Virus record (IMG/VR): IMGVR_UViG_3300042924_002592
Location: 1 to 41,564 of that record
Origin: a virus
Length of the DNA stretch: 41,564 nt
Direction: 5' to 3' (one strand)
In this document: positions 1 to 41,564 of the stretch, in pieces
Numbering within the stretch: position 1 is the stretch's first letter
How the letters are laid out: each line of letters begins with the position of its first letter
Position numbers and translations under genes: made by a program
Notes under the pieces: generated by a model
What the model saw: only the letters and a program-made list of their open reading frames with translations
The model's database searches: none
What the model was told of the DNA's origin: nothing

Positions 1-116
1 AACACCAACATTACAGGTGGTGCTGATGCAGGAACCCAAAGAAAAAATGTGTTGACGAGAGCGAATGCGGCGAATAAAAGAATAATAATCAATACTTTTA
101 GATCATCTTTATGCAT
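1..116 (-). CDS. Small membrane or exported protein (3' end outside window)
   Basis: An open frame begins with ATG at 116 and runs off the window edge with no stop. It starts MHKDDLKVLIIILLFAAFAL and continues into VNTFFLWVP and a short Ala/Pro stretch. Residues 8-28 form one strongly hydrophobic segment after a short charged N-terminus, so it is a single-pass membrane protein or has an uncleaved signal. A GGAG ribosome binding site lies 7 bases before the ATG. It follows dsbA in the same direction, behind a structured 100-base gap. I do not recognise the family. Small membrane proteins at such positions may be lysis or envelope factors, but nothing here shows that. Confidence 0.55.
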   Translation of the reverse strand, partial: MHKDDLKVLIIILLFAAFALVNTFFLWVPASAPPVMLV

Positions 117-137
117 AATATAACTCCGAAGAGAAGA

Positions 138-211
138 TGGGGTGGGGAAGGTGAACTCCCACGGCGAGCAGTCTGGCGGATAGTGCCGTCAACTTAGAGT
201 ATTGCACCCCA
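138..211 (-). other. Structured intergenic element (possible leader RNA)
   Basis: The gap between dsbA and the small membrane gene is richer in G+C than its surroundings and can fold as a multi-branched structure. A 7-bp closing helix pairs TGGGGTG (138-144) with CACCCCA (205-211). Inside it a GTGGG/CCCAC helix (142-146 with 158-162, competing at its base with the outer helix) and an ACGGC/GCCGT helix (161-165 with 185-189) are possible. It lacks tRNA T-loop and anticodon geometry. Read on the minus strand it would be the 5' leader of the small membrane gene. Confidence 0.35.
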
Positions 212-217
212 ATATTT

Positions 218-454
218 TTATTTAGCCACGTTTTCGTAAATGGTTTGGAAATCGCTCTGCTCTGCGACTTCTTCCTCATAATTACGTTTGTGGTAAACAC
301 GCGCCAGTTTACGAGCCAACTTCTTTGGAATCTCACATTCGTCTTGCATCTTCTGAAGAATGTCTTTAATCAGATCACGTTCAGCCTCAATACGAGTGAG
401 TGAGTTGGAGATTTCTTGAAGGCATCCCAATACCTTTACTTTATCAAGTGCCAT
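218..454 (-). CDS. dsbA: DsbA-like double-stranded DNA-binding protein, late transcription
   Basis: This 78-residue protein matches the C-terminal pattern of T4 DsbA as I remember it: a basic helix, a YHK-x-N motif (here LARVYHKRNY), an acidic ExxAE stretch and a terminal YE/YD motif. In T4, DsbA binds double-stranded DNA near late promoters and modulates late transcription. It is translationally coupled to gp45, because the gp45 stop TAA overlaps the first of two adjacent ATGs (457 and 454). GGAG lies 4 bases from the first and 7 bases from the second, so I prefer 454. Its position next to the clamp gp45, itself the late-transcription activator, fits. A CTAAATA late-type box overlaps its stop codon. 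Confidence 0.75.
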   Translation of the reverse strand: MALDKVKVLGCLQEISNSLTRIEAERDLIKDILQKMQDECEIPKKLARKLARVYHKRNYEEEVAEQSDFQTIYENVAK

Positions 455-456
455 CA

Positions 457-1131
457 TTATTCTCCGAAAGTTGAACTTGCGGCTTCAATCGCAATGTAAT
501 AGGTGATGTCAACAGTTTTGTGCTTAAATCGAGCAAGACCTTTCTTGGCAATTGCAACGTCATACGAACCTTCAAGTAACTTGAAGTTTTCGACCTTCAT
601 CACAACTTTGAATTCCTTACCATTCTCAGCAGTACCAATTTCAATCTTGGACTGATCAGCAGAATCATCCTTCACGTCTGTAGCAATGAAGTGAATTGTG
701 GAACCATCGCTTTCAAACACGAAGTTGGGCGAACCAGAGATGCCAGCACTCTTACGCATCCAATCAAGATCTTCTTGCGAAAGACTGAATGAACAATCAG
801 GCTCACCAAACGTGATTGCCTTCTCAGGTGGAGTTACAATAACTTTCGGCGAGCAATACTTGATGTAATCAGACTTCTTGTTTGCACTAATATTGAGTTT
901 GTCATCGTCAAACGACAACTCGGCATCCTTGTACAAAGATACCTTTGCCAAAAGTTTGTTCAAATCATAAAGAGCGAACTCTTTTGGAAAACTCTCACCA
1001 ACAGTTGCTTCAACGAAGATTGTCTTGAGTGGAGAAATAGTTTTCAAAGTATTGCCAGACTTGAACTGCAAACTTTGATTAATGCCTGAAAAGTTTTTCA
1101 GGACTTGCACAGTATCATCAGAAAGTTTCAT
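457..1131 (-). CDS. 45: gp45 DNA polymerase sliding clamp
   Basis: The 224-residue protein begins MKLSDDTVQVLKNFSGINQS, closely like the T4 gp45 N-terminus (MKLS-DT---LKNF--IN), and ends with the Tyr-x-Ile-Ala-Ile-Glu-Ala strand seen near the gp45 C-terminus; length is close to T4 gp45 (about 228). gp45 is the trimeric clamp that tethers the replicative polymerase and also activates late transcription through gp55 and gp33. The ATG at 1131 is chosen over an upstream in-frame start at 1191 because GAGG sits 9 bases before it and the alignment begins there. The 5' end overlaps the gp1 gene by 14 bp. A near-perfect sigma70 promoter lies just upstream inside gp1. Confidence 0.95.
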   Translation of the reverse strand: MKLSDDTVQVLKNFSGINQSLQFKSGNTLKTISPLKTIFVEATVGESFPKEFALYDLNKLLAKVSLYKDAELSFDDDKLNISANKKSDYIKYCSPKVIVTPPEKAITFGEPDCSFSLSQEDLDWMRKSAGISGSPNFVFESDGSTIHFIATDVKDDSADQSKIEIGTAENGKEFKVVMKVENFKLLEGSYDVAIAKKGLARFKHKTVDITYYIAIEAASSTFGE

Positions 1132-1786
1132 AATTAACGACCTCATTTGCTTCAACACGATTATTATATAACGAATCAACCAACTTGTCAACTCTCACAG
1201 TCAACTCATCCAACGAACAATTATTATCCATCACAATATCATAATGCGAACCAATCCAAGCCCATTCACTGAAATGAATTTCTGGATATGCATTGCGCAT
1301 TATTTCTTGTTTGTTATAAAGATTGCATTCACGAGCAAGACTATACCACTCAGGATCATCACCACGACGAACGCGAATAACTTTGCCACCTGATTTTACG
1401 ATTGCATCAATTTCATTTGGGAAACGAACATCAGCAATCACATAGTTATTCCATGGTGCTTGTTCGCAGCGTCGCATCACAGTATGAACCCAGAGGTCAG
1501 GGTGAAATACATCACGACCTGCCTCTGTGCCCATTAGTTGGAGAGCCAATCTTGGTGAAAACTCACAACCGAATTTTTCTGACCACCACTTATCTGGCTG
1601 CTCACGCCATGCTCTAGATCCTGGAGTGTCACCTTCAAGCATGGAACGATTCCAACCGAAGATCGTGGCACAGGCGTCTTTGACGCTATTCGCATAACTC
1701 TCTTTGACGAAATCATGACGATCCACCAAGAGATCTGCAACTGTGCCTTTACCTGCTCCAATAAAGCCAACTAAACCTACAATCAT
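1118..1786 (-). CDS. 1: gp1 deoxynucleoside monophosphate kinase
   Basis: The 222-residue protein opens with MIVGLVGFIGAGKGTVADLL, a P-loop of the GxxGxGKGT kind (residues 7-15) typical of phage dNMP kinases, and it contains the family motifs LQLMGTEAGRD (near 82-92), W-HTVM and VIADVRFPNE, where the last Asp-Val-Arg-Phe-x-Asn-Glu is highly characteristic. These enzymes phosphorylate dNMPs to dNDPs for phage DNA synthesis. T4 gp1 (241 aa) also accepts hydroxymethyl-dCMP, so a role in supplying unusual nucleotides is conceivable given the modification island just upstream. It follows the glycosyltransferase gene by 15 bases with a GAGA binding site, and its end overlaps the gp45 start by 14 bp. 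Confidence 0.9.
   Translation of the reverse strand: MIVGLVGFIGAGKGTVADLLVDRHDFVKESYANSVKDACATIFGWNRSMLEGDTPGSRAWREQPDKWWSEKFGCEFSPRLALQLMGTEAGRDVFHPDLWVHTVMRRCEQAPWNNYVIADVRFPNEIDAIVKSGGKVIRVRRGDDPEWYSLARECNLYNKQEIMRNAYPEIHFSEWAWIGSHYDIVMDNNCSLDELTVRVDKLVDSLYNNRVEANEVVNYETF
1163..1191 (-). promoter_or_regulatory. Sigma70-type early promoter for gp45
   Basis: Read on the minus strand: -35 TTGACA at 1191-1186, exactly 17 bases, then -10 TATAAT at 1168-1163. Both hexamers match the consensus fully. It lies in the 3' end of the gp1 coding sequence and would start transcription about 25 bases before the gp45 ATG, giving the clamp and dsbA expression independent of the upstream island. Confidence 0.75.
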
Positions 1787-1801
1787 AACAAAATCTCTTT
1801 A

Positions 1802-2641
1802 TTAAAGAGAACCGACCCAATTGGCAACTGCAGGCATATCACCAGTGAATGCATAAGTGCCGATATGATGTGTTTTCATCCATGGGCAGAGCCAAATTTT
1901 ACCACCAAGATGACGCCACCACTGGCAGAACATATAATCTTCAGACAAGTAGCGATCTGATCCACCAACTTCCTTCTCAATACCATCCATCATGACCACA
2001 CGCTTGCGATCAATGACGGTATCGAAATAGGCGTGAATGTATCGCTTACCATCGAAGTTGGCTTGACCAACATGGTCTGGACGATAACTAAACTCAGGAT
2101 AGGCTTCTTTAAATTTATCAAAGACTTCACGTTTGACGAGCATGAAGCCAGTACCAATTTCAAGAACTTCAATTGGTTCAGCAACAGAGAATTTTTCAGT
2201 GCCTGGTGCTGGATTGAATACGAAATCACCAGCAACCTTTTCCATTTCAAGAGGCTCAATGTCAGGATGACGCTTCACAGCTTCCTTCACAGCACCCCAC
2301 TTAATGGATTTCTTTGGATATGGACCACCAATAACATCCTTATCAAGAGCAAGCAATGCAACAACATCACGCGGATCAAAATGAATATCAGCGTCGATGA
2401 ATAAGAGATGAGTGTAACCTTCTGCACGAAGGAATTCATCTACAAGATAATTGCGAGCGCGAGTGATAAGAGATTCATTGAAGATGAAAGAGAAACGAAC
2501 TTCAATGCCATATTGAGCGCACAATGCTTGCAAGTCTAAACAAGACTTCAAATACATACCATGCGCCATACCACCGTACATCGGAGTTGCGACAAAGAGT
2601 TTGTTTTTGCGCAAATCCTCAACCTTAACTTCTAACTGCAT
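1802..2641 (-). CDS. GT-A fold glycosyltransferase
   Basis: The 279-residue protein has a GT-A architecture: a nucleotide-binding start (KLFVATPMYGG), a metal-binding DxD in LLFIDADIHFDP (Asp83-Ala-Asp85), and a C-terminal acceptor region with LSEDYMFCQWW, where the SED triad is common in such enzymes. Proteins of this type are frequent in aquatic T4-like phages. It would transfer a sugar from a nucleotide donor, but the acceptor is unknown. It is the last gene of the island, two bases after the P-loop kinase stop, with GGAG 9 bases before the ATG. That placement makes a hydroxymethylated DNA base a plausible acceptor; host polysaccharide or phage protein are alternatives. Confidence 0.75.
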   Translation of the reverse strand: MQLEVKVEDLRKNKLFVATPMYGGMAHGMYLKSCLDLQALCAQYGIEVRFSFIFNESLITRARNYLVDEFLRAEGYTHLLFIDADIHFDPRDVVALLALDKDVIGGPYPKKSIKWGAVKEAVKRHPDIEPLEMEKVAGDFVFNPAPGTEKFSVAEPIEVLEIGTGFMLVKREVFDKFKEAYPEFSYRPDHVGQANFDGKRYIHAYFDTVIDRKRVVMMDGIEKEVGGSDRYLSEDYMFCQWWRHLGGKIWLCPWMKTHHIGTYAFTGDMPAVANWVGSL

Positions 2642-2643
2642 AA

Positions 2644-3225
2644 TTATTCACTCCAGTTGTAAAATTTTCTAATATGATCAATAATCTTAGACTGATCATC
2701 GAGATTTTCGTTGACCATTGTCTCTATATAGTCCATGAGTGTCAGCGACCCCATGATATTCGAGATTTTAGTCTTACGAGAATTTTTGAATTTGTCATCT
2801 TGATCATCTTTGCGATCAATGTGACGTTGATCAAGAGTGCTATCCTTGACTGTAAGGATTAGAATCTTGAAATCATTTGGGAATAGTTCAGAAAGGCGAT
2901 CAAGCATTTTGCCATTGAACAAACGATCACCTTCGAAGATCACATTTACACTATGACCATCTGCATTTGATTCATATGCAAGATTACTAAAGAACGCAGT
3001 AGCATCTGGTTGAACTGCCATTGACAAACGATCAGTGCCCTGGAACACATTACCATCATTCACATACTTGCCAAGAATATAAAGATTCAGTTTCTTGGAA
3101 TACATTGCATCAAGAAGTTTCTCTGGCTTCGAAGTAACCCAATCATCAGCCATGGAAATCAATTTAAACATCAAAGTGGTTTTGCCAGTTGCTGGCTCAC
3201 CACCCATAGCAATCACTCTTACCAT
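2644..3225 (-). CDS. P-loop kinase, candidate 5-hydroxymethyl-dU DNA kinase
   Basis: The 193-residue protein starts MVRVIAMGGEPATGKTTLMF, with a Walker A motif GEPATGKTT at residues 9-17, and has a Walker B-like strand VNVIFEGD (near 94-101) and a later Arg/Lys/Asp-rich lid (QRHIDRKDDQDDKFKNSR). Small P-loop kinases next to alpha-GPT-pyrophosphorylase-type genes are known in hypermodified phages, where they phosphorylate 5-hydroxymethyluracil in DNA to activate it. Here that neighbour is directly upstream and overlaps it by 7 bp (ATGGTAA). GGAGG lies 4 bases before the ATG. The substrate is inferred from context; the kinase fold is seen in the sequence. No second domain is fused to it. Confidence 0.65.
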   Translation of the reverse strand: MVRVIAMGGEPATGKTTLMFKLISMADDWVTSKPEKLLDAMYSKKLNLYILGKYVNDGNVFQGTDRLSMAVQPDATAFFSNLAYESNADGHSVNVIFEGDRLFNGKMLDRLSELFPNDFKILILTVKDSTLDQRHIDRKDDQDDKFKNSRKTKISNIMGSLTLMDYIETMVNENLDDQSKIIDHIRKFYNWSE

Positions 3226-4244
3226 AATGCCTCCAAACCTTCTTTCACTGGTTGTTCATCATCGAACATCCAATCCATTCGTTCTATTCTACCTGTTCTT
3301 AAGAAATAAGTAAACTTTTCTTTGTTGATTGTATTTCTCGGAGCAAGTCTGAGATCAAGAGTTTCATTTCTTGCTTGCCACAAAACATTCCATTCAATAC
3401 CAGTCCAACCGTCGCCTTCTGCTTGATTGATTTCTTCAGACTGGCGATCAAGATAATAACCAAGATATCGACCATGATGTTCACGAAAGATTTTCTTGAA
3501 TGAGCAAAGGCAAGTCTCCATCGTGAAGAAATCGATTTGATTGCTCAGTTGAGGGAATCGAGATCTGGTTTCCTCAAGAATTTCTTTGGCATGGCTTTCA
3601 AGGTCTGCGCATTCCCCAGAAGTGAGTTTAACATCATATTTGTCATCTTGCCCGAGGGCGAGATGCAGACCATTACGATGAGAGCGAGAGCCTGCAAAAT
3701 CGTCAAGCATGAGGCTGTCAGGTACACAAGCAATGCCAGCAGTATGAACAAGATGCTGAAGGTAAAACCAAGTGGAATAGCGACCAAATTTGTGAAGAGA
3801 AGTTTTAAGATTATTCCAAAGATTGTGGAAAGATTGCGTTTCGTTGTCGCCATAATAATTTTCTAGAACCTCACGTTGAGTTTTCTTGCCAATAAACTTT
3901 TGGTAAGATGCGAACATGGCAGGCAAGTGACCTTTGTTCCACTTTGTATCAACTTGGTATCTGAGTCTTTTGTAGTTGTGACTATTCCACCATTCGATAC
4001 GATCAACGGTAGCAAGTTCATAGTCTGGGAATTCATTTTTTAGAACCCATGCAGTTGGCAATTGATAGGTGTTACCATAAAGCCATGCAAGCCAGAGTTT
4101 TTCCTCATCATTGTGTTCGTATCGACGGTGGAGATAGTTTGTCATCCATACCGCTGGATCGCAGTCGCCAAACTGCATCGACCACGCATACCAGCGGATG
4201 AATGACTCGCGCCTCTCTTTAGTTGTTGAACGCAGGGAGGACAT
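3219..4244 (-). CDS. alpha-glutamyl/putrescinyl thymine pyrophosphorylase-like (amino acid:DNA transferase or HMUDK helical domain)
   Basis: The 341-residue, Trp- and His-rich, mostly helical protein resembles the alpha-GPT-pyrophosphorylase group predicted and later linked to thymine hypermodification in phages: RRESFIRWYAWSMQFGDCDP near the N-terminus, then WLAWLYGNTYQLPTAW, a GRYSTWFYLQ segment and LDDFAGSRSHRNGL. In characterised systems these proteins displace the phosphate of phosphorylated hydroxymethyluracil with an amine or amino acid. A related helical domain is also part of 5-hmdU DNA kinases, so this gene plus the adjacent P-loop kinase could be one kinase split in two. ATG at 4244 follows an in-frame TTG. 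It overlaps the ParB-like gene by 26 bp and no strong binding site is visible, suggesting coupling. The family call is from memory of motif pattern. Confidence 0.65.
   Translation of the reverse strand: MSSLRSTTKERRESFIRWYAWSMQFGDCDPAVWMTNYLHRRYEHNDEEKLWLAWLYGNTYQLPTAWVLKNEFPDYELATVDRIEWWNSHNYKRLRYQVDTKWNKGHLPAMFASYQKFIGKKTQREVLENYYGDNETQSFHNLWNNLKTSLHKFGRYSTWFYLQHLVHTAGIACVPDSLMLDDFAGSRSHRNGLHLALGQDDKYDVKLTSGECADLESHAKEILEETRSRFPQLSNQIDFFTMETCLCSFKKIFREHHGRYLGYYLDRQSEEINQAEGDGWTGIEWNVLWQARNETLDLRLAPRNTINKEKFTYFLRTGRIERMDWMFDDEQPVKEGLEALW
3286..3314 (-). promoter_or_regulatory. Sigma70-type promoter for P-loop kinase and downstream genes
   Basis: On the minus strand, -35 TTTACT at 3314-3309, 17-base spacer, -10 TAGAAT at 3291-3286. 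It lies inside the 3' end of the transferase-like gene, about 60 bases before the kinase ATG. The -35 hexamer is the same as in the promoters at 5603, 7143, 9477 and 22696. Confidence 0.5.
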
Positions 4245-5532
4245 CAACAGTTACATCAAGTTGCATATATTGAATCATATCACGAAGTTTGTCAATGTGC
4301 TTTTCTTGATCATCAATAGCCAATTCATTCTTGCTCTTGAAATACAAAACAATAGCACCCTTTTTCTTTTTCATATTGTACATTCTGTGAACGATATAAC
4401 CAAGGGCAACAGCATGTTCTGCCTTCGAAGCAGTTGCATGAATCGCTGCAACACCTTTCAACTCATACTTCTTCACTTTGTAGTTGTTCAAGAAATTGTC
4501 ATCATAGGCAATCAAATTGTCTTGATACTTTAAAGCATTTTGTTGAGTTGCAAAATCGTTCATAATAGAACGAAACAAACCATTGAGTTTTTTCTTGTCT
4601 TCAGTGATCAACGAGAATCGTTCATAAATCAATTCACGAGCACTGTCGACCTGAAGCGGATCAGAAAGATCAAATCCTTCGCTCACCAAGAAGTTATTGA
4701 TATTTCTCTTGATGTCACCATCTGTATTGGTTTTACGAACAATAAAGTCCTCTTTATTTTCTAAAAGACCAAACAGATCATAGTTGGCATTACGAGTTTT
4801 CTCATCAGCACCAAACTCAGTTTCATTTATATAGACAACAGGAATCTCTTTGAGCGCAGTTCTCGAAACTGCCTCAAGGCGATTATTCCCATTGAGAATG
4901 GTATATACAATTTTGTTTTTATGACGAGAAACAACGACAACTACAGGATCTTTCATCAACCAATCCCAAGCATCTTTGGGGTTTTGATCAAACCGAGATT
5001 TGATCTTACGAACATGGTTAACGTCAATCTGTTCAACGCGAATTTGATTTCTCTTATATGCGTGAACAGTTTTGACAGGTTCAAGAACAACTTTGTATTG
5101 ACCTGACTTTATCGCTTCATGAATTGTTGTTACAGTTGTTTTGTCTTGAACAAAGCGGTCAGTTGGCTTGATGCCTTCAGAACGACCCTCAATCCAATCT
5201 ACGAGTGTTTGCTTATGTTCTTCAGTTAGCAATGACTCATCAATGCAATGCGCATTGTTTGATTTATTGTAGAACATATTTTTGTTCCAAGACATGCCAT
5301 AATCAAGACCAAACCACTCAAGTGTTTGAGCGATATCGTCTTCATGCGCACTACCTTCGAACAATAAAGACTTTTCAAGTTTACCCTTGTAAAAGTCGTC
5401 CCAGAACTGGGCACTAGAGATTGAAGAAATATAATCTAACTTATCGGTTTTGGGGGACTTATAACCAATGTTCATCATCCCATTTTCAATGTTACGAAAA
5501 CCATAAACATAACACACTTTACTAGTCAACAT
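4219..5532 (-). CDS. GIY-YIG-like / ParB-like domain protein
   Basis: The 437-residue protein seems to have three parts. Residues 1-100 begin MLTSKVCYVYGFRNIENGMM and NIGYK, a spacing like the two tyrosine-containing strands of GIY-YIG nucleases. Residues about 150-230 resemble a ParB/sulfiredoxin-fold domain, with IRVEQIDVNHVRKIK and the signature ILNGNNRLEA. Residues 250-437 are a lysine-rich helical region. ParB-fold proteins include CTPases, nucleases and serine kinases (SerK/SbnI), and they recur in predicted phage base-modification operons. Start ATG at 5532 has AGGAG at 6 bases and is preferred to a TTG at 5550. A dedicated promoter lies upstream. The role may be DNA-site recognition, nuclease or small-molecule kinase; the sequence does not decide. 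Confidence 0.6.
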   Translation of the reverse strand: MLTSKVCYVYGFRNIENGMMNIGYKSPKTDKLDYISSISSAQFWDDFYKGKLEKSLLFEGSAHEDDIAQTLEWFGLDYGMSWNKNMFYNKSNNAHCIDESLLTEEHKQTLVDWIEGRSEGIKPTDRFVQDKTTVTTIHEAIKSGQYKVVLEPVKTVHAYKRNQIRVEQIDVNHVRKIKSRFDQNPKDAWDWLMKDPVVVVVSRHKNKIVYTILNGNNRLEAVSRTALKEIPVVYINETEFGADEKTRNANYDLFGLLENKEDFIVRKTNTDGDIKRNINNFLVSEGFDLSDPLQVDSARELIYERFSLITEDKKKLNGLFRSIMNDFATQQNALKYQDNLIAYDDNFLNNYKVKKYELKGVAAIHATASKAEHAVALGYIVHRMYNMKKKKGAIVLYFKSKNELAIDDQEKHIDKLRDMIQYMQLDVTVDVLPAFNN

Positions 5533-5602
5533 ATCAAACTCCTTCGGCAAATAACATTATGCCATATAAGGTTAAATTGTCACCACTATTAGCGACAGAT
5601 AT

Positions 5603-5631
5603 ATTATAGGTTATCTAATCGCAAAAGTAAA
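5603..5631 (-). promoter_or_regulatory. Sigma70-type early promoter for ParB-like gene
   Basis: On the minus strand, -35 TTTACT at 5631-5626, 17-base spacer, consensus -10 TATAAT at 5608-5603. It occupies the 107-bp gap between the GNAT and ParB-like genes. A TGTCGC/GTGACA hairpin (5597-5578) sits at the predicted transcript start. The stretch TTTACTTTTG-GATT is shared with the promoter at 9477-9505. Confidence 0.75.
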
Positions 5632-5639
5632 CAGCAATT

Positions 5640-6146
5640 TTAATAAACTTGCACACATCCACCTTTACCCTTTTTATACACTGCTGCATGTATAACAGGA
5701 TCATTCAGATCATAGATTCCATCGGCGAAATTCTTGCCATTAATCTTGAACATACTCAGCGAACATCCACTTTTCTGTTTTCCCAAGAATTTGAATCCCA
5801 TGGATTCATAGAATACGACTGCATCAGGCTCTGCTGAAACGCGATAGTAACTGGTGCCAAGACCTTGTGCGCGATCAAGAGAGTCTTGAGTGAGTAATCT
5901 TGCAACACCCTTACGTCTATGTTTCGCAAACGTATGAAGCAATTGTAGATTGAAGACATATGGAGTTTTCTTAGATCGTGTCGTGATAATCGCGCCAGCC
6001 AACTCTCCGCCGTCCCAACACCCAATACAGTACTGCCATTGTTCCTGCATGTCAGCCTTTGCCACAAAAGTCTTGGCAAAAGAGTCTGCTTTATCTTCAG
6101 TGATATGCGCGACGAATTCATCGCGACTTGTATCACGCAGCCTCAT
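5640..6146 (-). CDS. GNAT-family N-acetyltransferase
   Basis: The 168-residue protein has the GNAT core: the acetyl-CoA-binding signature in LHTFAKHRRKGVARLL (R-x-x-G-x-A form, about residues 70-86) after a strand reading YVFNLQLL, and the C-terminal AVVFYESMGFKFLG element that closes the fold. It would acetylate an amine. In this operon the natural candidate is an amino group on a modified base or its precursor; self-protection or protein acetylation cannot be excluded. Start ATG 6146 is chosen because an earlier in-frame start (6212) would overlap the amidoligase by 80 bp; with 6146 the overlap is 14 bp. The binding site is weak (GAG at 4 bases). It is the last gene before the ParB promoter. 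Confidence 0.8.
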   Translation of the reverse strand: MRLRDTSRDEFVAHITEDKADSFAKTFVAKADMQEQWQYCIGCWDGGELAGAIITTRSKKTPYVFNLQLLHTFAKHRRKGVARLLTQDSLDRAQGLGTSYYRVSAEPDAVVFYESMGFKFLGKQKSGCSLSMFKINGKNFADGIYDLNDPVIHAAVYKKGKGGCVQVY

Positions 6147-7005
6147 GGAACTCGCGTTTCTTTTCTCCACGTTCCTTTGGATATTTGGTTTGCTGCCATC
6201 CATGATATTCATCCAAATTCCACTTAAATGGTGGAAATTTATAATCAGATTCAGAAAGAATTTCCTTCACTGAGGGACCCTGGTTCAGTGCTGAGTCGAC
6301 GAACTTTTCCACGAATCGAAACTGAGATTCCATTTCCTCACGTTTAGTTGTGGAACGGAAGCAGCGAAACTCAATCGTACCAGTATGCTTCATGCAGTAA
6401 GTATTAATGGCAAATCTAAATGGTCGACCCATTGATACGCCATCTTTGCCAGCAGCATGTAATTTAATAAAATGATCAAAGTCAGTTGCAAGATTGATAA
6501 TGTTGTCGCACATATAGTCAGGCATTGGACGACCACCATCAAACTTCAAATACATCTTTGCGCCTTCTACTTGCTTCATCTCAGAAGTTTCATAGAATTG
6601 ATAACAGGCTTCAATGGTATCTTGTTGATTGTCTTTAATGTAAGCAATCAAACGCTTGAGTCCATCAATATCATTTTTCAATCCTGGAACAAAGACATGA
6701 ATATGTCCATGATTGACGCAGGAAGCAGTAGGCATATTGCCATACTCAATAAACATTTCTTTCAAACGCATGATACGATCAACTTGTTCCTGCCAAGTTT
6801 TAGTTGGCATCATATTGACTTCGCCGCCCATCCATGGCTCTTTGCCAAGTGGATCACAAGCACGATATTGAAATGGTGGATGAAGATTTACAATGTCTGT
6901 TTCAGCATATTCCCATTTGCCGAGAGTTGGGGGAATCTCCATACGACGATCAATATCACCCCATTCAATCTCAGCACCATATGTAAACGTTGACTTATCG
7001 TACAT
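6133..7005 (-). CDS. Amidoligase-like (COOH-NH2 ligase) enzyme
   Basis: The 290-residue protein shows the amidoligase family plan (ATP-grasp/glutamine synthetase-like carboxylate-amine ligases): N-terminal MYDKSTFTYGAEIEWGD, where T-x-G-x-E-I-E is the metal/ATP-binding strand, a central histidine motif VNHGHIHVFV, and a C-terminal TGTIEFRCFRST strand with the family's E-F-R. Such enzymes form amide bonds between a carboxylate and an amine. They are associated with peptide tagging, and with predicted DNA base modification in phages. Start 7005 has AAGGA 8 bases upstream and overlaps the glutaminase end by 11 bp. Adjacent to an ammonia-generating glutaminase and an acetyltransferase, it probably builds or extends an amino-acid-like side chain. 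Its substrate is unknown. Confidence 0.75.
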   Translation of the reverse strand: MYDKSTFTYGAEIEWGDIDRRMEIPPTLGKWEYAETDIVNLHPPFQYRACDPLGKEPWMGGEVNMMPTKTWQEQVDRIMRLKEMFIEYGNMPTASCVNHGHIHVFVPGLKNDIDGLKRLIAYIKDNQQDTIEACYQFYETSEMKQVEGAKMYLKFDGGRPMPDYMCDNIINLATDFDHFIKLHAAGKDGVSMGRPFRFAINTYCMKHTGTIEFRCFRSTTKREEMESQFRFVEKFVDSALNQGPSVKEILSESDYKFPPFKWNLDEYHGWQQTKYPKERGEKKREFHEAA

Positions 7006-7684
7006 GCTGTAAATCCTTTGCATCATCAATCAAAACATAGTTCTTCTGAAAGATACCTTTGCCAATTGTGGTATAAAAGTTCATACCAATCTCAATAGGA
7101 TTTTTGAGGTCAGCACGAATTGCAATATCTTTCGTTGAAGTAATTATACCGCCATTTGGCAAAGAAGTAAAGTAAATTGGACGCTTACCGTTGCGATAGA
7201 AACGCAGTTTATTTTCTTTGTATAACTCAATTACAGCCATGGAAGCATTCTGAAACTCAAGTAATGGAGACTTCTTTGCCTCAAGAGTATGAAGGATCAA
7301 CTCACTGTCATTTCTGGTTTTGCATTTGTATCCATATAGACGTTCCCAGTTCTCTGGCATCTCTTGTGTGATCACGCCATTATGCACAATCGAAATATTC
7401 TCATTCCATAATGGCTGATTGAACTCAAGATCAGACGTAGAATATCGGCAGTGACCAATTAGATATAGATTGCCATCTTCATTCACACAATTGTTTAGAT
7501 CGAGTGATTCTAAAAACTGTGTGGCTGGTTTAGCCTCAATGCGAGTTTTAACTTCGCCATCACGCACCCAAGAAACACCAGTTGCATGTAATCCGCGAAT
7601 ACTAGACTCGCGAAAAACATCAGCAAGCATAATCAAGTCACGAGAACTTGGGTTCTCAATATAAGCACCAATGATTGCGCACAT
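6995..7684 (-). CDS. Stand-alone class II glutamine amidotransferase (Ntn glutaminase)
   Basis: The 229-residue protein is a complete class II glutaminase domain without a synthase partner. It begins MCAIIG, so Met removal exposes the catalytic Cys2. The glutamine-binding motifs are RGLHATG (30-36), GHCRYST (77-83), HNG (101-103) and ND (125-126), as in GlmS, PurF and asparagine synthetase. It would hydrolyse glutamine and pass ammonia to a partner. The gene is sandwiched between the TET/JBP-like dioxygenase (stop one base before its ATG, with no Shine-Dalgarno, so translation is likely coupled) and the amidoligase, which it overlaps by 11 bp. The amidoligase or the base-transfer enzyme is therefore the likely ammonia acceptor. 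Confidence 0.85.
   Translation of the reverse strand: MCAIIGAYIENPSSRDLIMLADVFRESSIRGLHATGVSWVRDGEVKTRIEAKPATQFLESLDLNNCVNEDGNLYLIGHCRYSTSDLEFNQPLWNENISIVHNGVITQEMPENWERLYGYKCKTRNDSELILHTLEAKKSPLLEFQNASMAVIELYKENKLRFYRNGKRPIYFTSLPNGGIITSTKDIAIRADLKNPIEIGMNFYTTIGKGIFQKNYVLIDDAKDLQHVR
7143..7171 (-). promoter_or_regulatory. Internal sigma70-type promoter for amidoligase and GNAT
   Basis: On the minus strand, -35 TTTACT at 7171-7166, 17-base spacer, -10 TATAAT at 7148-7143. It is inside the glutaminase coding sequence, about 140 bases before the amidoligase ATG. The match in both boxes and in spacing equals that of the intergenic promoters, but coding constraint cannot be excluded. Confidence 0.45.
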
Positions 7685-7685
7685 A

Positions 7686-8978
7686 TTAGGCGAACATATT
7701 TTCTAGGGTTGAGATTTCTTCATATGCTTTTGGATGGTATTTTTGAACCATCTCTTTTCCACCAACTCTCTCAAGATAGTCATACCACTCTTGTTCTTCC
7801 CACATTCCTTCTGAAATGCCATTCCAGAGTCTTCGTTGGAGTGGATGTTCTTTGTTTTTTCGACGTGACTCAACATAATTAAATCGATGATCTTCATACT
7901 CTTTGCTTCCAAGTTCGAGCATCTTCTCACGCAGATAACAAACAAGACTTACACGCTCAGCAGTTTCATCTTGTAGTTCAATAGGTGTATTGCCGTGAAT
8001 GTACTCATGATTATTGACAAGCAGCAGGTCACCTGGTCGTACATTCACAGCAATACGAACTTCTGGCAATATGAGATATCCACCTGTATAATTGCCATTA
8101 TTTGAAAGAACGAGAAGATTACTCAACCCATTCGTAAAGTCACCAGCATCGCGATGCGCTGCTGTTCTAAATGTTTTGTTCACTGTGATTGTTGTAAACA
8201 CAGTTTGTGGAACGAGGAATGCTGGGTCAATTTTATCTGCTGCTTCACGTTGAGCAGCATGACGATTTGGTAACAATTCTGCAAAACCGCGATCAAGTGT
8301 TTGTAAAAACGGAAATGACATTTGAAATTTATCAAATGAGTTTTGCGTATATGCTGTCGCACGACCATATGGAATGCGAGGATAACGATCAAACCATCCA
8401 GCAATGCCAGACAAAACTACATTGGCATAAGTTGTGTCAGAGATATAAGTTTCTTCAACACCACGTGCTTCTTCTTTACGATCCTTCACAGACATCTTAA
8501 CTGCTTTCTTGAGCCACTTATCAAAGTCAAAATTATCCTCTTTGACTTTGGCACTCAACCAAACAAGACCACGTGATGAACCTTCGTCTTTATATTTCTC
8601 TCGAAGATTTTCTACTTCTTCAGCAACATCAATCTTGACAACAGAATTTTCTGGCTGCTTCTTGAAGAATTCTAAAACACGCAATTGAAACTCAGTAGCC
8701 CATTCACGACCACCGCATTTCTCACCTTTCGGTCCAGCAGCAAGCCCACGGTTTTGAGTTGGTGTTGCTGCTTCTCTCAATCCAGCATACGCAGCATCTT
8801 GCTCTTGTTTGCTGAAGTAATTTTTACGAAACTTGAATGCAATATTATCTTCGTGTTCACTTCCAAGATAACAATCAGTGTCTTCATTGATGAGAGTGTC
8901 AAAATGAGACTCATCAAGAAATTGACCTAGCAAATGTTCGCAATCAAATTTTGATTTGGCAATAATAACTTTTGTCAT
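7686..8978 (-). CDS. TET/JBP-family 2OG-Fe(II) dioxygenase
   Basis: The 430-residue protein has a C-terminal double-stranded beta-helix of TET/JBP type. TVNKTFRTAAHRDAGDF carries the iron ligands His275 and Asp277, followed by LLVLSNNGNYTGGYLILP, the distal ligand in HEYIHGNTP (His328) and the 2-oxoglutarate-binding Arg342 in ERVSLVCYLR. The FRTAxHxDxGD form is the one I associate with JBP and phage TET enzymes, which oxidise thymine or 5-methylcytosine in DNA. Residues 1-250 hold no domain I recognise. It heads the island: a consensus promoter and AGGAG (6 bases) precede it, and the glutaminase follows after one base. No cytosine-5 methyltransferase or dUMP hydroxymethylase is visible in the window, so hydroxylation of thymine in situ is the simplest reading. 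Confidence 0.8.
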   Translation of the reverse strand: MTKVIIAKSKFDCEHLLGQFLDESHFDTLINEDTDCYLGSEHEDNIAFKFRKNYFSKQEQDAAYAGLREAATPTQNRGLAAGPKGEKCGGREWATEFQLRVLEFFKKQPENSVVKIDVAEEVENLREKYKDEGSSRGLVWLSAKVKEDNFDFDKWLKKAVKMSVKDRKEEARGVEETYISDTTYANVVLSGIAGWFDRYPRIPYGRATAYTQNSFDKFQMSFPFLQTLDRGFAELLPNRHAAQREAADKIDPAFLVPQTVFTTITVNKTFRTAAHRDAGDFTNGLSNLLVLSNNGNYTGGYLILPEVRIAVNVRPGDLLLVNNHEYIHGNTPIELQDETAERVSLVCYLREKMLELGSKEYEDHRFNYVESRRKNKEHPLQRRLWNGISEGMWEEQEWYDYLERVGGKEMVQKYHPKAYEEISTLENMFA

Positions 8979-8998
8979 AGTTTTCTCCTGCTCATGAT

Positions 8999-9027
8999 AT
9001 TATATATCCAGCAAGGCGCAATGTCAA
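8999..9027 (-). promoter_or_regulatory. Consensus sigma70 promoter for the modification island
   Basis: On the minus strand, -35 TTGACA at 9027-9022, 17-base spacer, -10 TATAAT at 9004-8999: full consensus. Transcription would begin about 14 bases before the TET/JBP-like ATG, just including the AGGAG ribosome site. It lies directly behind the stem-loop at 9057-9081. Confidence 0.8.
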
Positions 9028-9056
9028 ACTCAGTATTTTCCGAAACGCAAATGAAA

Positions 9057-9081
9057 CTGTGGGGGCATTGCACCCCCACAG
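9057..9081 (-). terminator. Strong stem-loop after the small HTH-like gene
   Basis: CTGTGGGGG and CCCCCACAG form a perfect 9-bp helix with a 7-base loop. On the minus strand it lies 30 bases after the stop of the 97-residue gene and is followed by TTTCATTTG, a poor but present U-rich tract; the other strand is followed by AACTTTTT. It could therefore stop transcription from both sides. With the promoter immediately after it, the unit resembles the stem-loop-plus-early-promoter cassettes described for T4-type phages. Confidence 0.65.
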
Positions 9082-9110
9082 AACTTTTTCAGTTTTTTAG
9101 AATTGGCTGA

Positions 9111-9404
9111 TTAGCCCATCGTGACGCTGATAGCATCGCGGTAGAGAGTCTTGCGAGCACGTGCAATTTGACCCTGATCGAGATACTTCTCGAACTGCTT
9201 CGAAGGATTGCCAAGACGATAGGCAAAAACCTTCTCACCACGCGAATTCGTGACGCGATTGGTGTATACAGAGATACCTTCATTGCGTGCGCGATAAGCG
9301 AGGTCAGCAGCATTGTCAACCTTGAACATGGCGCGAACTTGACGCGATGTCACGGTGTTGCCGTCAGCAAGATAAGAAACAAACGAATTAAGAGCATTAG
9401 ACAT
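9111..9404 (-). CDS. Small conserved phage protein, possible winged-helix
   Basis: The 97-residue basic protein begins MSNALNSFVSYLADGNTVTS and contains TSRQVRAMFKVDNAADLAYR followed by a strand-turn-strand segment (SVYTNRVTNSRGEKVFAYRL), a layout compatible with a small winged helix-turn-helix. I have the impression of related proteins in other aquatic T4-like phages but cannot assign a function. A transcriptional role is only suggested by the fold guess. ATG 9404 follows GAAGG at 8 bases; a GTG at 9419 would bury that site. It has its own promoter, a leader of about 65 bases with a hairpin, and a strong stem-loop after it, so it is a monocistronic early unit. Confidence 0.65.
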   Translation of the reverse strand: MSNALNSFVSYLADGNTVTSRQVRAMFKVDNAADLAYRARNEGISVYTNRVTNSRGEKVFAYRLGNPSKQFEKYLDQGQIARARKTLYRDAISVTMG

Positions 9405-9424
9405 ATTAATAACCTTCACAAAAA

Positions 9425-9466
9425 CACCCCTTCAATAATATCGCAAGATTGGGGCTTTCCTTGCGA
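9425..9466 (-). promoter_or_regulatory. 5' leader hairpin with possible pseudoknot
   Basis: In the predicted leader RNA of the 97-residue gene, TCGCAAG (9466-9460) pairs with CTTGCGA (9447-9441) over 7 bp. The 12-base loop holds CCCC (9454-9451), which can pair with GGGG (9430-9427) downstream to form an H-type pseudoknot just before the ribosome binding site. This is compatible with a small cis-regulator or an RNA-stabilising fold. I recognise no known riboswitch. Confidence 0.35.
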
Positions 9467-9476
9467 CATACTTGTT

Positions 9477-9505
9477 ATTATATAATAACAAATCCCAAAA
9501 GTAAA
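9477..9505 (-). promoter_or_regulatory. Sigma70-type early promoter for small HTH-like gene
   Basis: On the minus strand, -35 TTTACT at 9505-9500, 17-base spacer, consensus -10 TATAAT at 9482-9477. The predicted start is about 65 bases before the ATG at 9404. Confidence 0.75.
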
Positions 9506-39491: not shown

Positions 39492-41564
39492 CGTGCATCC
39501 TTAATAGCCAAAGTTCCAAAGTAGGTTGATCCACCATCATATGTCGCAAACTGCCAAACGTCTCGGTAGTTTGCTGTCAAAGTTTGCGGAGGAACTTCGC
39601 CACCTGCCCAATAAATCGTATTTGCCCAAGTTATGCCGCGATTACCCACACCATCTTGAACAATAACAAGCGTGAACGACTGCGAGTTGCCACTTGCTGG
39701 AGCATTTGAGAAGGTGATCGTGGAGTTTGCTGTCAAAGTTCTTGTAAAGAAGTTTGATTGAGCAAGATTCAATGTATTGGCGCCATTGGTATTTGTATTT
39801 GCAACAGTACCAAGAATCAAGTTACCTGAATTACGAATACCTGGAACAACCAACACACCAGTCATGGTGTCGCCAGCCTTCAATACTGCATTGTTTGCTG
39901 CACCATAAGCAGAATTCGCTTGACCATAAGCAGCATTCGCTTGACCATAGGCGGCGTTGGCTTGTCCGTAAGCCGTATTCGCTTGAGTACGAGCGGTGTT
40001 TGCTTGGTCTCTAGCAGTATTCGCTTGACCTCTAGCGGTATTTGCTTGTTCGTATGCGTTTAGCGCATTTGTACCAGCTGTATTTGCTGCGCCGTAAGCA
40101 GCATTCGCTGTGTCACGAGCCGTGTTCGCTTGTCCATACGCAGCATTTGCAGTATCGCGTGCTGTGTTTGCTTGAGTACGAGCGGTATTTGCTTGATCTC
40201 TGGCTGAGTTTGCTTGCCCATACGCAGCGTTGGCTTGTGCATATGCAATTGTTCCAGGTGGTTCAATTACAATATTGCCAACCATTCCAGCATGAACTTG
40301 ACATTGATAAACGTAAGTGTTTCCAAGTAAGTTATATGGAACCTTCCAATATAATGTTCCACTTTCTTTAGCCTGAGCACTGCCTTCAGTGGACACAGTT
40401 CCGTTTGTTGCAACGTGAGTAAGTCCAGTGTTATATAACGCTCCACCACTTGAAACACGAATTAAGAATGGATGTCCTGAAACGTTTAAATTAAATGCAA
40501 TAGTTTCACCAGCACGGACATAAAGTGTTGGATCACCGCCTGAGTATTGATCAAACAAATAATCAGATGTTCCACTATTTGTCACATTCAGCCTTGTGAC
40601 TGCTGGCTGGTAATTTGAATTTGCTTGAATGTACGCATCGTTGGCGGTTGTTCGAGCAGTATTTGCTTGGTCACGAGCAGTATTTGCCTGACCGTATGCA
40701 TTGTTGCCAGTATCTCTTGCTGTATTTGCCTGGTTACGAGCAGAATTTGCTTGATCGTATGCTGTATTTGCTTGAGCATAAACAATGTTCGCATGGGCAT
40801 AAGCACCATTGGCTTGAGCGTAAGCAGTATTTGCTTGAGTGCGAGCAGTATTTGCCTGATCTCTAGCGGTATTTGCTTGACCATAAGCATCATTGGCTGT
40901 AGTGCGAGCAGTGTTTGCCTGATCTCTAGCGTTATTGGCTTGAGCATAAGCATTCAATGCATTGGTATTTGCCGTATTAGCACCAGCATATGCATCATTT
41001 GCAGTATTTCTTGCAGTATTCGCTTGAGCGTATGAATCATTTGCAGTCGTACGAGCAGTGTTTGCCTGATCGCGAGCAGTGTTTGCCTGATCGCGAGCAG
41101 TGTTTGCCTGAGCATATGCGCCGTTAGCCTGACCATAAGCGCCATTTGCAGTGTCACGTGCGGTATTGGCTTGACCATATCCAGAATTCGCTGTATTACG
41201 AGCAGTATTCGCTTGATCGCGAGCAGTATTGGCTTGACCATATGAATTGAGCGCAATTGTTTCCGCACTATTTGCCTCTGCATATGCATCGTTTGCAGTC
41301 GTGCGAGCGGTGTTGGCTTGGTCTCTTGCGCTATTGGCTTGATTGTAAGCCAATGTTAGATTTGCTTGAGTTGCAACTGAATTGCCGAGCAACAAAACGC
41401 TATTCGCATTTAAAATTCCAAGTCTAACATTACCAATTCTAAAATTATTATTTGCAATATCAATGACATTATTTGTTGGTTCAGTTTCATAATTGTCAAA
41501 GACATAAAATTGATTTTCTGTTGCTTTTCTGAAGAAACCAGCGTGAGTATTTGTCGCGCCATTA
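39488..41564 (-). CDS. Tail fibre-like protein with embedded cupredoxin domain (5' end outside window)
   Basis: The frame is open from the window edge to the stop at 39488, at least 691 residues, so the true start is upstream of 41564. It starts with THAGFFRKATENQFYVFDNY, a segment I associate with long fibre proteins of aquatic phages. Then follow about 35 alanine-rich heptads (40613-41350; A-x-x-x-A-N-x such as AYGQANT/ARDQANT), a copper-type domain (40250-40603), 17 further heptads (39890-40246), and a C-terminal cap with DTMTGVLVVPGI, TLNLAQSNFFTRTLTANSTI and GTLAIKDAR. In the cupredoxin the ligands His (GHPFLI), Cys, His and Met (YQCQVHAGM, spacing C-x2-H-x2-M as in amicyanin) are all present. 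The fibre would bind host surfaces. Glycosyltransferases follow it. Confidence 0.85.
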   Translation of the reverse strand, partial: NGATNTHAGFFRKATENQFYVFDNYETEPTNNVIDIANNNFRIGNVRLGILNANSVLLLGNSVATQANLTLAYNQANSARDQANTARTTANDAYAEANSAETIALNSYGQANTARDQANTARNTANSGYGQANTARDTANGAYGQANGAYAQANTARDQANTARDQANTARTTANDSYAQANTARNTANDAYAGANTANTNALNAYAQANNARDQANTARTTANDAYGQANTARDQANTARTQANTAYAQANGAYAHANIVYAQANTAYDQANSARNQANTARDTGNNAYGQANTARDQANTARTTANDAYIQANSNYQPAVTRLNVTNSGTSDYLFDQYSGGDPTLYVRAGETIAFNLNVSGHPFLIRVSSGGALYNTGLTHVATNGTVSTEGSAQAKESGTLYWKVPYNLLGNTYVYQCQVHAGMVGNIVIEPPGTIAYAQANAAYGQANSARDQANTARTQANTARDTANAAYGQANTARDTANAAYGAANTAGTNALNAYEQANTARGQANTARDQANTARTQANTAYGQANAAYGQANAAYGQANSAYGAANNAVLKAGDTMTGVLVVPGIRNSGNLILGTVANTNTNGANTLNLAQSNFFTRTLTANSTITFSNAPASGNSQSFTLVIVQDGVGNRGITWANTIYWAGGEVPPQTLTANYRDVWQFATYDGGSTYFGTLAIKDAR
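39890..40246 (-). repeat. Alanine heptad repeat block 2 of the fibre
   Basis: About 17 seven-residue units of the type A-Y-G-Q-A-N-A/T and A-R-D-Q-A-N-T, encoded as 21-bp imperfect DNA repeats. Ala falls at first and fifth positions of each heptad, as in an alanine-zipper coiled coil. Confidence 0.85.
40250..40603 (-). other. Cupredoxin (type 1 copper) domain segment
   Basis: About 118 residues without heptad repeats, from TRLNVTNSG to VIEPPGT. The four type 1 copper ligands are present: His in SGHPFLIRV (codon at 40474-40472), then Cys (40303-40301), His and Met in YVYQCQVHAGMVGNIVI. Confidence 0.8.
40613..41350 (-). repeat. Alanine heptad repeat block 1 of the fibre
   Basis: About 35 heptads (246 residues) of the same design, with common triplet supra-repeats AYGQANT-ARDQANT-ARTTAND (63 bp). 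DNA repeats are near-identical in places, for example GCGAGCAGTGTTTGCCTGAT repeated at 41076-41110, so slippage or recombination could change length. Confidence 0.85.

Follow-up and report, generated by a model that had tools for sequence, protein, structure and literature searches.

A 5-hydroxymethyldeoxyuridine (5hmdU) DNA kinase and downstream transferases have been described for the phages M6, ViI and phiW-14 (PMC6449724, PMC7653180), whose 5hmdU is made as a nucleotide (PMC5977210), and in M6-like phages a thymidylate synthase (TS) is said always to accompany the pyrophosphorylase (PMC9599517). Cytosine hypermodification by phage TET enzymes involves a C5-methyltransferase (C5-MTase), TET and glycosyltransferases (GTs) (PMC12730594). 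TET/JBP proteins were reported to be absent from the jumbo phages studied, and 5-hydroxymethylcytosine (5hmC) was therefore taken to be made there at the nucleotide level (PMC7824862). Some relatives of the amide ligase CmoY carry a glutaminase domain, and ParBc genes occur as neighbours (PMC12783734). Here we analyse a stretch of DNA of 41,564 nt (the window, IMG/VR record IMGVR_UViG_3300042924_002592) from a T4-like virus of bacteria, in which eight minus-strand open reading frames (ORFs) at positions 1802-8978 form an island that probably makes a hypermodified thymine after replication, starting from thymine oxidised in DNA by a TET-type enzyme. Its unusual feature would be that TET replaces the 5hmdUMP synthase ahead of a kinase and an ADDT-type transferase. 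The predicted products are listed below in transcription order, with gp1 as the next gene.

7686..8978, minus strand: TET/JBP-type Fe(II)/2-oxoglutarate (2OG) dioxygenase, 430 aa (Pfam Tet_JBP, conserved residues, predicted fold)
6995..7684, minus strand: stand-alone class II (N-terminal nucleophile, Ntn) glutamine amidotransferase, 229 aa (Pfam GATase_6, residues)
6133..7029, minus strand: amidoligase (ATP-dependent carboxylate-amine ligase, glutamine-synthetase fold), 298 aa (motifs, predicted fold, weak Pfam match)
5640..6212, minus strand: GNAT acetyltransferase, 190 aa (Acetyltransf_10)
4219..5550, minus strand: GIY-YIG-like plus ParB-like protein, 443 aa (weak ParB_N match; GIY-YIG by eye)
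3219..4247, minus strand: ADDT / alpha-GPT-PPase-type DNA base transferase, 342 aa (Pfam ADDT)
2644..3225, minus strand: P-loop kinase, 193 aa (GxPxxGKxT motif, Ploopntkinase3 in relatives)
1802..2641, minus strand: GT-A-like glycosyltransferase, 279 aa, flanking (Anp1 6.4e-4, phrog_1574 2.9e-62)
1118..1786, minus strand: gp1 dNMP kinase, right-hand island boundary (DNMK 2.9e-9)

The original prediction of eight tightly spaced or overlapping ORFs ending at gp1 was borne out in coordinates, strand and order. The TET and glutaminase genes are separated by 1 nt, the glutaminase and amidoligase genes overlap by 35 nt, and the amidoligase and GNAT genes overlap by 80 nt with the earliest start codon, or by less if an internal start is used; then follow an 89-nt gap (GNAT/ParB), overlaps of 29 nt (ParB/ADDT) and 7 nt (ADDT/kinase), and gaps of 2 nt (kinase/GT) and 15 nt (GT/gp1). 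Such a block is not due to chance, because the same gene order recurs in relatives at lower identity. A megablast search of window positions 1-9500 against phages gave no match. The T4-type late promoter pattern TATAAATA occurs twice in the window against a chance mean of 1.88, and neither occurrence is near the island.

With regard to the enzyme labels, TET (Tet_JBP, 3.6e-24), ADDT (4.6e-20), GNAT (Acetyltransf_10, 2e-15) and the glutaminase (GATase_6, 3.8e-10) were recognised above the curated Pfam cut-offs, as was gp1. The matches of the amidoligase (Amidoligase_2, 0.023), the ParB-like protein (ParB_N, 0.023), the P-loop kinase (AAA_33, 0.036) and the Anp1-type GT lie below the cut-offs; the amidoligase label is upheld by the predicted fold at a weak sequence score, and the labels of the kinase and of the ParB and GIY-YIG parts are the weaker ones. 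Here and below, row counts for conserved residues and family matches take in the window protein.

Is the first enzyme of the island a TET protein or another 2OG oxygenase? The Tet_JBP model scores 85.3 bits (cut-off 34.9), and residues H275xD277, H328 and R342 are invariant in 34 rows; we take H275, D277 and H328 to be the iron ligands (HxD...H) and R342 to be the 2OG-binding arginine. When the AF2 model (pLDDT 83.2, pTM 0.71) was compared with the PDB, the top 16 rows were TET2, CMD1, NgTet1 and CcTet (Z 16.9-18.8), AlkB-type and other proteins ranked below them (Z 13.7 or less), and the best Foldseek E-value was 3.8e-10, to NgTet1. The sequence-only PDB search gave weak matches only (NgTet1, 0.057), and no thymine-specific TET/JBP catalytic-domain structure was among the PDB rows listed for the model. 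Profile and predicted structure agree in pointing to the Tet_JBP family and a TET fold, not to another 2OG oxygenase or an unrelated family. The TET proteins of DLP6 (L002) and Cr30 (L004) are annotated as SNF2 DNA repair proteins, a name that looks wrong.

The genome context bears on which base is oxidised and by which route. The window is identical to positions 78495-120058 of contig G001 (172,991 bp), which is T4-like by Cr30 queries (gp43, gp41, UvsX, gp23, gp20, gp17 and others). The idea that G001 alone is a complete genome was dropped, as gp61, NrdA/B and DNA ligase were not found there with these queries. Contig G005 (61,671 bp) shares ~39.8 kb with the start of G001 at 100% identity and 3.1 kb with its end at 99.0%, bridging a gap of ~18.4 kb, for a combined total of ~191 kb. 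G001 encodes a dUTPase and a dCMP deaminase; ThyX was not found in G001 and is present in G005, together with gp61 and a ribonucleotide reductase. In this gap contig, ThyX and the B12-type ribonucleotide reductase lie close to gp61 (L203, 9561-13398). Neither G001 nor G005 has a match to PF00303 (the thymidylate-synthase fold, the family that makes 5hmdUMP) or to PF00145 (C5-cytosine methyltransferase); as controls, PF00303 was detected in phage Cygsa01, which has ADDT and no TET match, and PF00145 was detected adjoining TET in Melnitz. The virus seems able to make dTMP, but seems to be without a known kind of 5hmdUMP synthase or 5-methylcytosine (5mC) maker. Since both families are missing from the two contigs, TET acting on thymine in DNA, which is its predicted reaction, best explains the hydroxymethyl handle. 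The original prediction had left open whether thymine or 5mC is oxidised: the TET family assignment stands, and the 5mC option is disfavoured by the lack of a C5-methyltransferase in the two genome-closing contigs.

A route through cytosine, in which TET would oxidise 5mC and the kinase and ADDT would act on 5hmC, has precedents in the phages that glycosylate cytosine by means of a C5-MTase, TET and glycosyltransferases (PMC12730594) and in Melnitz, where a C5-MTase, TET, a GIY-YIG/ParB-like protein and a related kinase stand in a row. This route nevertheless appears unlikely, as PF00145 was not found in G001, G005 or two related fragments (G003, G004), and only one of the six TET phage records tested (Melnitz) has it. 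In Methylophilales phage Melnitz-3, the row (L212, 4010-8090) comprises the C5-MTase (PF00145, 7.4e-55), TET/JBP (3.6e-11), the GIY-YIG/ParB-like protein (by eye) and the kinase, and is an apparent cytosine counterpart of the island. Two unassigned Melnitz proteins considered as ADDT relatives were rejected, as hhalign with the ADDT family showed no relation.

The island enzymes predicted to act on the thymine-derived hydroxyl are the kinase and ADDT. The transferase belongs by profile to the ADDT / alpha-GPT-pyrophosphorylase family, in agreement with the original prediction: the window protein scores 72.8 bits (cut-off 26.2), and the Pfam ADDT model matches 24 of 25 rows at E <= 0.01 (best 1.3e-52); the sequence-only PDB search gave no convincing relative at E <= 1. 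ADDT-type enzymes of known kind presumably use amines or amino acids as substrates, and the Pfam family name spells out amino acid:DNA transferase. The GxPxxGKxT motif of the kinase is invariant in 22 rows, 13 of which match Ploopntkinase3 (best 2.9e-17), the window row giving no such match at E <= 0.01; adjoining ADDT, this protein is predicted to be a 5-hydroxymethyl-base DNA kinase. Among PHROGs it has one good match (6.1e-8), to a family that bears the name terminase small subunit. The Cr30 kinase is annotated likewise, and there the name looks wrong.

The linkage of these genes was assessed by scanning IMG/VR with TET, ADDT and amidoligase and taking the best 80 each of 145, 168 and 226 matches. 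Seventy loci spanned TET to GT in this order, and with exact duplicates removed, 52 distinct islands remained, the window's included; Cr30 (different order) and loci not spanning both TET and GT are left out of this number. ADDT, kinase and glutaminase occur together in 34 of the 52 islands, and none of the three is present in the other 18. For 34 distinct ADDTs the collected loci reach 5.5 kb or more upstream; TET is near 33 of these and glutaminase near 30. Each of the 21 distinct amidoligases with sufficient flank among these loci has TET, glutaminase, ADDT and kinase in its vicinity, a count that leaves aside two distant relatives (28-29% identical) from named phages. Within the 34 ADDT islands, 22 have an amidoligase (19 similar, 3 at ~31-33% identity). 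The remaining 12 have none within the island, where absence was judged and an amidoligase elsewhere in those genomes is possible; all 12 keep the glutaminase and carry a different GNAT-like gene in the GNAT place.

In 17 of the 18 non-ADDT islands, a 442-aa GT-B (Glycos_transf_1 in the one tested) stands between TET and GT in place of glutaminase, ADDT and kinase; the eighteenth is DLP6, and this GT-B is in no ADDT locus among the loci collected. In a quick tree of TET (52 rows, 39 of them different, with DLP6 left out of the state count), 5 changes are required to explain the ADDT/GT-B state. Its starred branches make necessary at least 2 changes for GT-B, at least 4 for amidoligase and at least 3 for no-amidoligase; L028, with amidoligase, pairs with L049, with GT-B (support 99). 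Because the tree forces repeated state changes, we conclude that cassettes are evidently exchanged behind closely related TETs, which fits the expectation if TET makes a shared hydroxyl handle. The GT-B variant (L034, 2005-3333, and 16 further islands) could give base-J-like glycosylated hydroxymethyluracil, if TET acts on T. In another locus (L100, 984-3467), a second GT-B, a distant amidoligase and a low-molecular-weight phosphatase (LMWPc, 4.1e-17) adjoin ADDT. In Phage C48C1 (L003, 10001-13385), TET is followed by a 344-aa protein and then by a UDP-galactopyranose mutase (GLF, 5.6e-52), for which a galactofuranosyl-type base modification is possible.

In the glutaminase, M1-C2, R80, N102-G103 and D126 are invariant in 23 rows; C2 is presumably the N-terminal catalytic-type cysteine, and R80, N102-G103 and D126 the glutamine-binding residues. 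The sequence-only PDB search with this protein gave no match at E <= 0.001. It is predicted to be the ammonia source. The window amidoligase reaches 15 bits with Amidoligase_2 (cut-off 22), all 27 amidoligase rows match this model at E <= 1 (best 1.5e-7), and the motifs GxExE, GGExN, HxH and ExR are invariant; the sequence-only PDB search gave no convincing relative at E <= 1. Its AF2 model (pLDDT 84.6, pTM 0.87) was aligned by VIA-align with YbdK (Z 11.3), glutamine synthetase (GS; 10.7) and glutamate-cysteine ligase (GCL; 10.6), within a range of about 10-11.6, which points to an ATP-dependent carboxylate-amine ligase of GS/YbdK-type predicted fold. The GNAT protein is predicted to acylate the side-chain amine.

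From these families and their linkage we infer every reaction, substrate and purpose of the following pathway. TET/JBP would hydroxylate thymine in the phage DNA at its methyl group, giving 5-hydroxymethyluracil and standing in for the nucleotide-level 5hmdUMP synthase of other thymine-hypermodifying phages; the P-loop kinase would phosphorylate the hydroxyl, and ADDT would replace the phosphate by a nitrogen nucleophile. Glutaminase, amidoligase and GNAT would then build on the amine through transfer of ammonia, formation of an amide bond and acylation, the likely product being an amide-extended aminomethyl-uracil. The GIY-YIG/ParB protein would have an accessory part, perhaps directing the machinery to its target or cleaving DNA that lacks the modification, and the likely purpose of the whole is to shield the phage genome from restriction or other bacterial defences.

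The first three steps follow from the families; the preferred order within the last is less sure. In the order of the original prediction, ADDT would add an amino acid (e.g. glycine), the amidoligase would amidate its carboxylate with glutaminase-derived ammonia, and GNAT would acylate the product. This order is quite possible, if short of probable: the substrates assumed above for known ADDT-type enzymes and the Pfam name agree with it, and the glutaminase and amidoligase genes overlap and are neighbours also in NV1, which has no TET match. A parallel exists in CmoY, a phage amide ligase that joins glycine to 5-carboxymethylcytosine (5cxmC), a related cluster having a glutaminase domain (PMC12783734). 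The 12 ADDT islands with a glutaminase and another GNAT-like gene, and no amidoligase within the island, speak against this order and against glutamine-derived ammonia being destined for the amidoligase; the ammonia may feed ADDT. Since ADDT keeps its glutaminase even in islands lacking an amidoligase, we slightly prefer ammonia as the ADDT nucleophile, followed by aminoacylation and capping: glutaminase-derived ammonia would be used by ADDT to make 5-aminomethyl-dU, the amidoligase would add an amino acid, and GNAT would cap it. The complete scheme, with a TET start in DNA, 5-aminomethyl-dU made in this way, an acylated aminoacyl (peptide-like) chain built by the GS-fold amidoligase and GNAT, and a cassette that related phages replace by one for glycosylation or plain acylation, is put forward as tentative, possible rather than probable. 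The two orders can yield isomers of equal mass: the computed [M+H]+ is 315.13 for glycyl-aminomethyl-dU as well as for Gly-T amide. For the other candidate products it is 259.09 (5hmdU), 258.11 (5-aminomethyl-dU), 300.12 (its N-acetyl form), 316.11 (Gly-T) and 357.14 (the N-acetylglycyl form).

Several observations weigh against a thymine pathway that begins with TET in DNA. All loci were found by similarity to the window proteins, so that the counts apply to a single lineage cloud. When 52 loci having 6 kb or more behind TET were counted, 41 had all three genes, 10 had none and 1 had ADDT alone, and 4 of the 34 distinct ADDTs (L071, L075, Cr30 and Cygsa01, 28-30% identical) are without a glutaminase nearby. 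By Foldseek alone, the amidoligase model gave one match at E <= 0.001, with TM <= 0.48 in the rows shown. A relative of the kinase is also present in the cytosine-type operon of Melnitz. The two contigs come from different records, with one overlap at 99.0%, and the gap stretch may derive from a sister strain. Moreover, ThyX could in principle make the modified nucleotide, or a host enzyme could supply 5hmdUMP, TET then having another role. In favour of such a nucleotide-level route, ThyX is encoded in G005, and Cr30, with TET, ADDT and kinase, also has a PF00303 protein (3.9e-113) that might be a 5hmdUMP synthase rather than a dTMP maker, the two kinds of synthase being hard to distinguish from sequence (PMC5977210); known systems make 5hmdUMP before replication (PMC6449724, PMC5977210). 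We nevertheless regard this route as very improbable, given that a TS-fold synthase was not found in G001 or G005 although it was detected in Cygsa01, and that TET is retained with changing genes behind it, in islands that were partly chosen by TET.

Could the block, or its glutaminase-amidoligase-GNAT part, modify a protein or a small molecule instead of DNA? In NV1, the relatives of glutaminase and amidoligase neighbour each other in a cluster that also has ligases, RimK-like and GGCT genes and is without a TET match, so that this pair does not by itself indicate TET-based modification of DNA. In Vibrio phage 2.275, relatives are found within a cluster of 7-deazaguanine genes, and the stretch shown has no TET annotation. 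These cases also count against the proposed pathway, and the NV1 cluster speaks for a protein or small-molecule target. The linkage of the amidoligase to TET, kinase and ADDT in all 21 distinct cases makes such a target very improbable. In the Vibrio phage 2.275 locus (L208, 5866-10126), a far amidoligase relative (29%) adjoins queuosine/7-deazaguanine genes as well as a 'nucleophile aminohydrolase', perhaps a further glutaminase; an amide step in a guanine-modifying cluster is possible there.

The GIY-YIG/ParB-like protein seems optional and is a candidate that may serve as targeting factor or nuclease. ParB_N matches 7 of 21 rows (best 5.3e-8); the GIY-YIG half was read by eye and is not reported by Pfam. 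By tblastn, the gene was found in 5 of the 34 ADDT islands; in the remaining ones, it is absent or a diverged or HNH-like protein occupies the slot. In L120, L152 and L159, the slot between GNAT and ADDT holds an HNH-like protein (by eye) in place of GIY-YIG/ParB, as if a nuclease function had been exchanged. In Melnitz, a protein of like layout (by eye, 17% identical) lies between TET and the kinase.

The terminal GT is the part of the predicted island that was not supported, whereas the families, the TET-kinase-ADDT logic and the reading as a DNA-base hypermodification island were. Homologues occur in 63 phage records, phiM12 included, where the gene sits between gp46 and gp45. Because phiM12 has this homologue but no TET or ADDT match, we treat the GT as a neighbour; its membership in the unit is not supported by these comparisons. 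Elsewhere in the window, at positions 40614-41237, are stretches repeated in the same virus contig at 73-84% identity, maybe shared tail-fibre segments.

A study of 2013 reportedly predicted that phage hypermodification starts from hydroxymethylpyrimidines made by TET/JBP. Our literature search found no title or abstract start describing TET, kinase, ADDT, glutaminase and amidoligase together, which does not prove absence from print. If the proposed pathway is true, thymine hypermodification would have a second entry, in which T is oxidised in place as opposed to 5hmdUMP synthesis; thymine would also be extended through an amide bond, and phages would have their own version of the step with which base J synthesis begins. 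The cassettes behind related TETs (GT-B; another GNAT; amidoligase and GNAT; GT-B, amidoligase and phosphatase) would offer a ready-made toolkit of enzymes for derivatising DNA, and the culturable phage Cr30 has the core of TET, ADDT and kinase.

How, then, does the island compare with known systems? It shares with M6, ViI and phiW-14 a P-loop kinase and ADDT predicted to act on a hydroxymethyl handle, followed by side-chain tailoring; unlike these phages, the island virus has TET/JBP and no TS-fold 5hmdUMP synthase in the two contigs, and it adds a glutaminase and an amidoligase. Caulobacter phage Cr30 likewise combines TET, ADDT and kinase in one T4-like genome, but its ADDT is 28% identical, its PF00303 protein is annotated as thymidylate synthase, and no glutaminase or amidoligase match was found in the 21-kb locus searched. 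The CmoX/CmoY system for 5cxmC-glycine resembles the island in the amide bond on a DNA base (as proposed here) and in a ParBc neighbour, whereas its handle is a carboxymethyl group on cytosine and its ligase is asparagine-synthetase-like, as opposed to a hydroxyl handle and a ligase of GS/YbdK-type predicted fold; as to CmoX, a C5-MTase homologue, PF00145 gave no match in G001 or G005, with no CmoX/CmoA model used. With the phage TET cytosine system the island has in common a hydroxyl made in DNA by TET/JBP, and 17 related islands carry TET and GT-B, but no C5-MTase was found, and a kinase and ADDT take the place of glycosylation. Finally, as in the base J pathway (kinetoplastid JBP and a glycosyltransferase), thymine would be hydroxylated in DNA by TET/JBP, but in the island, which belongs to a phage, the hydroxyl would then be phosphorylated and aminated, not glucosylated.

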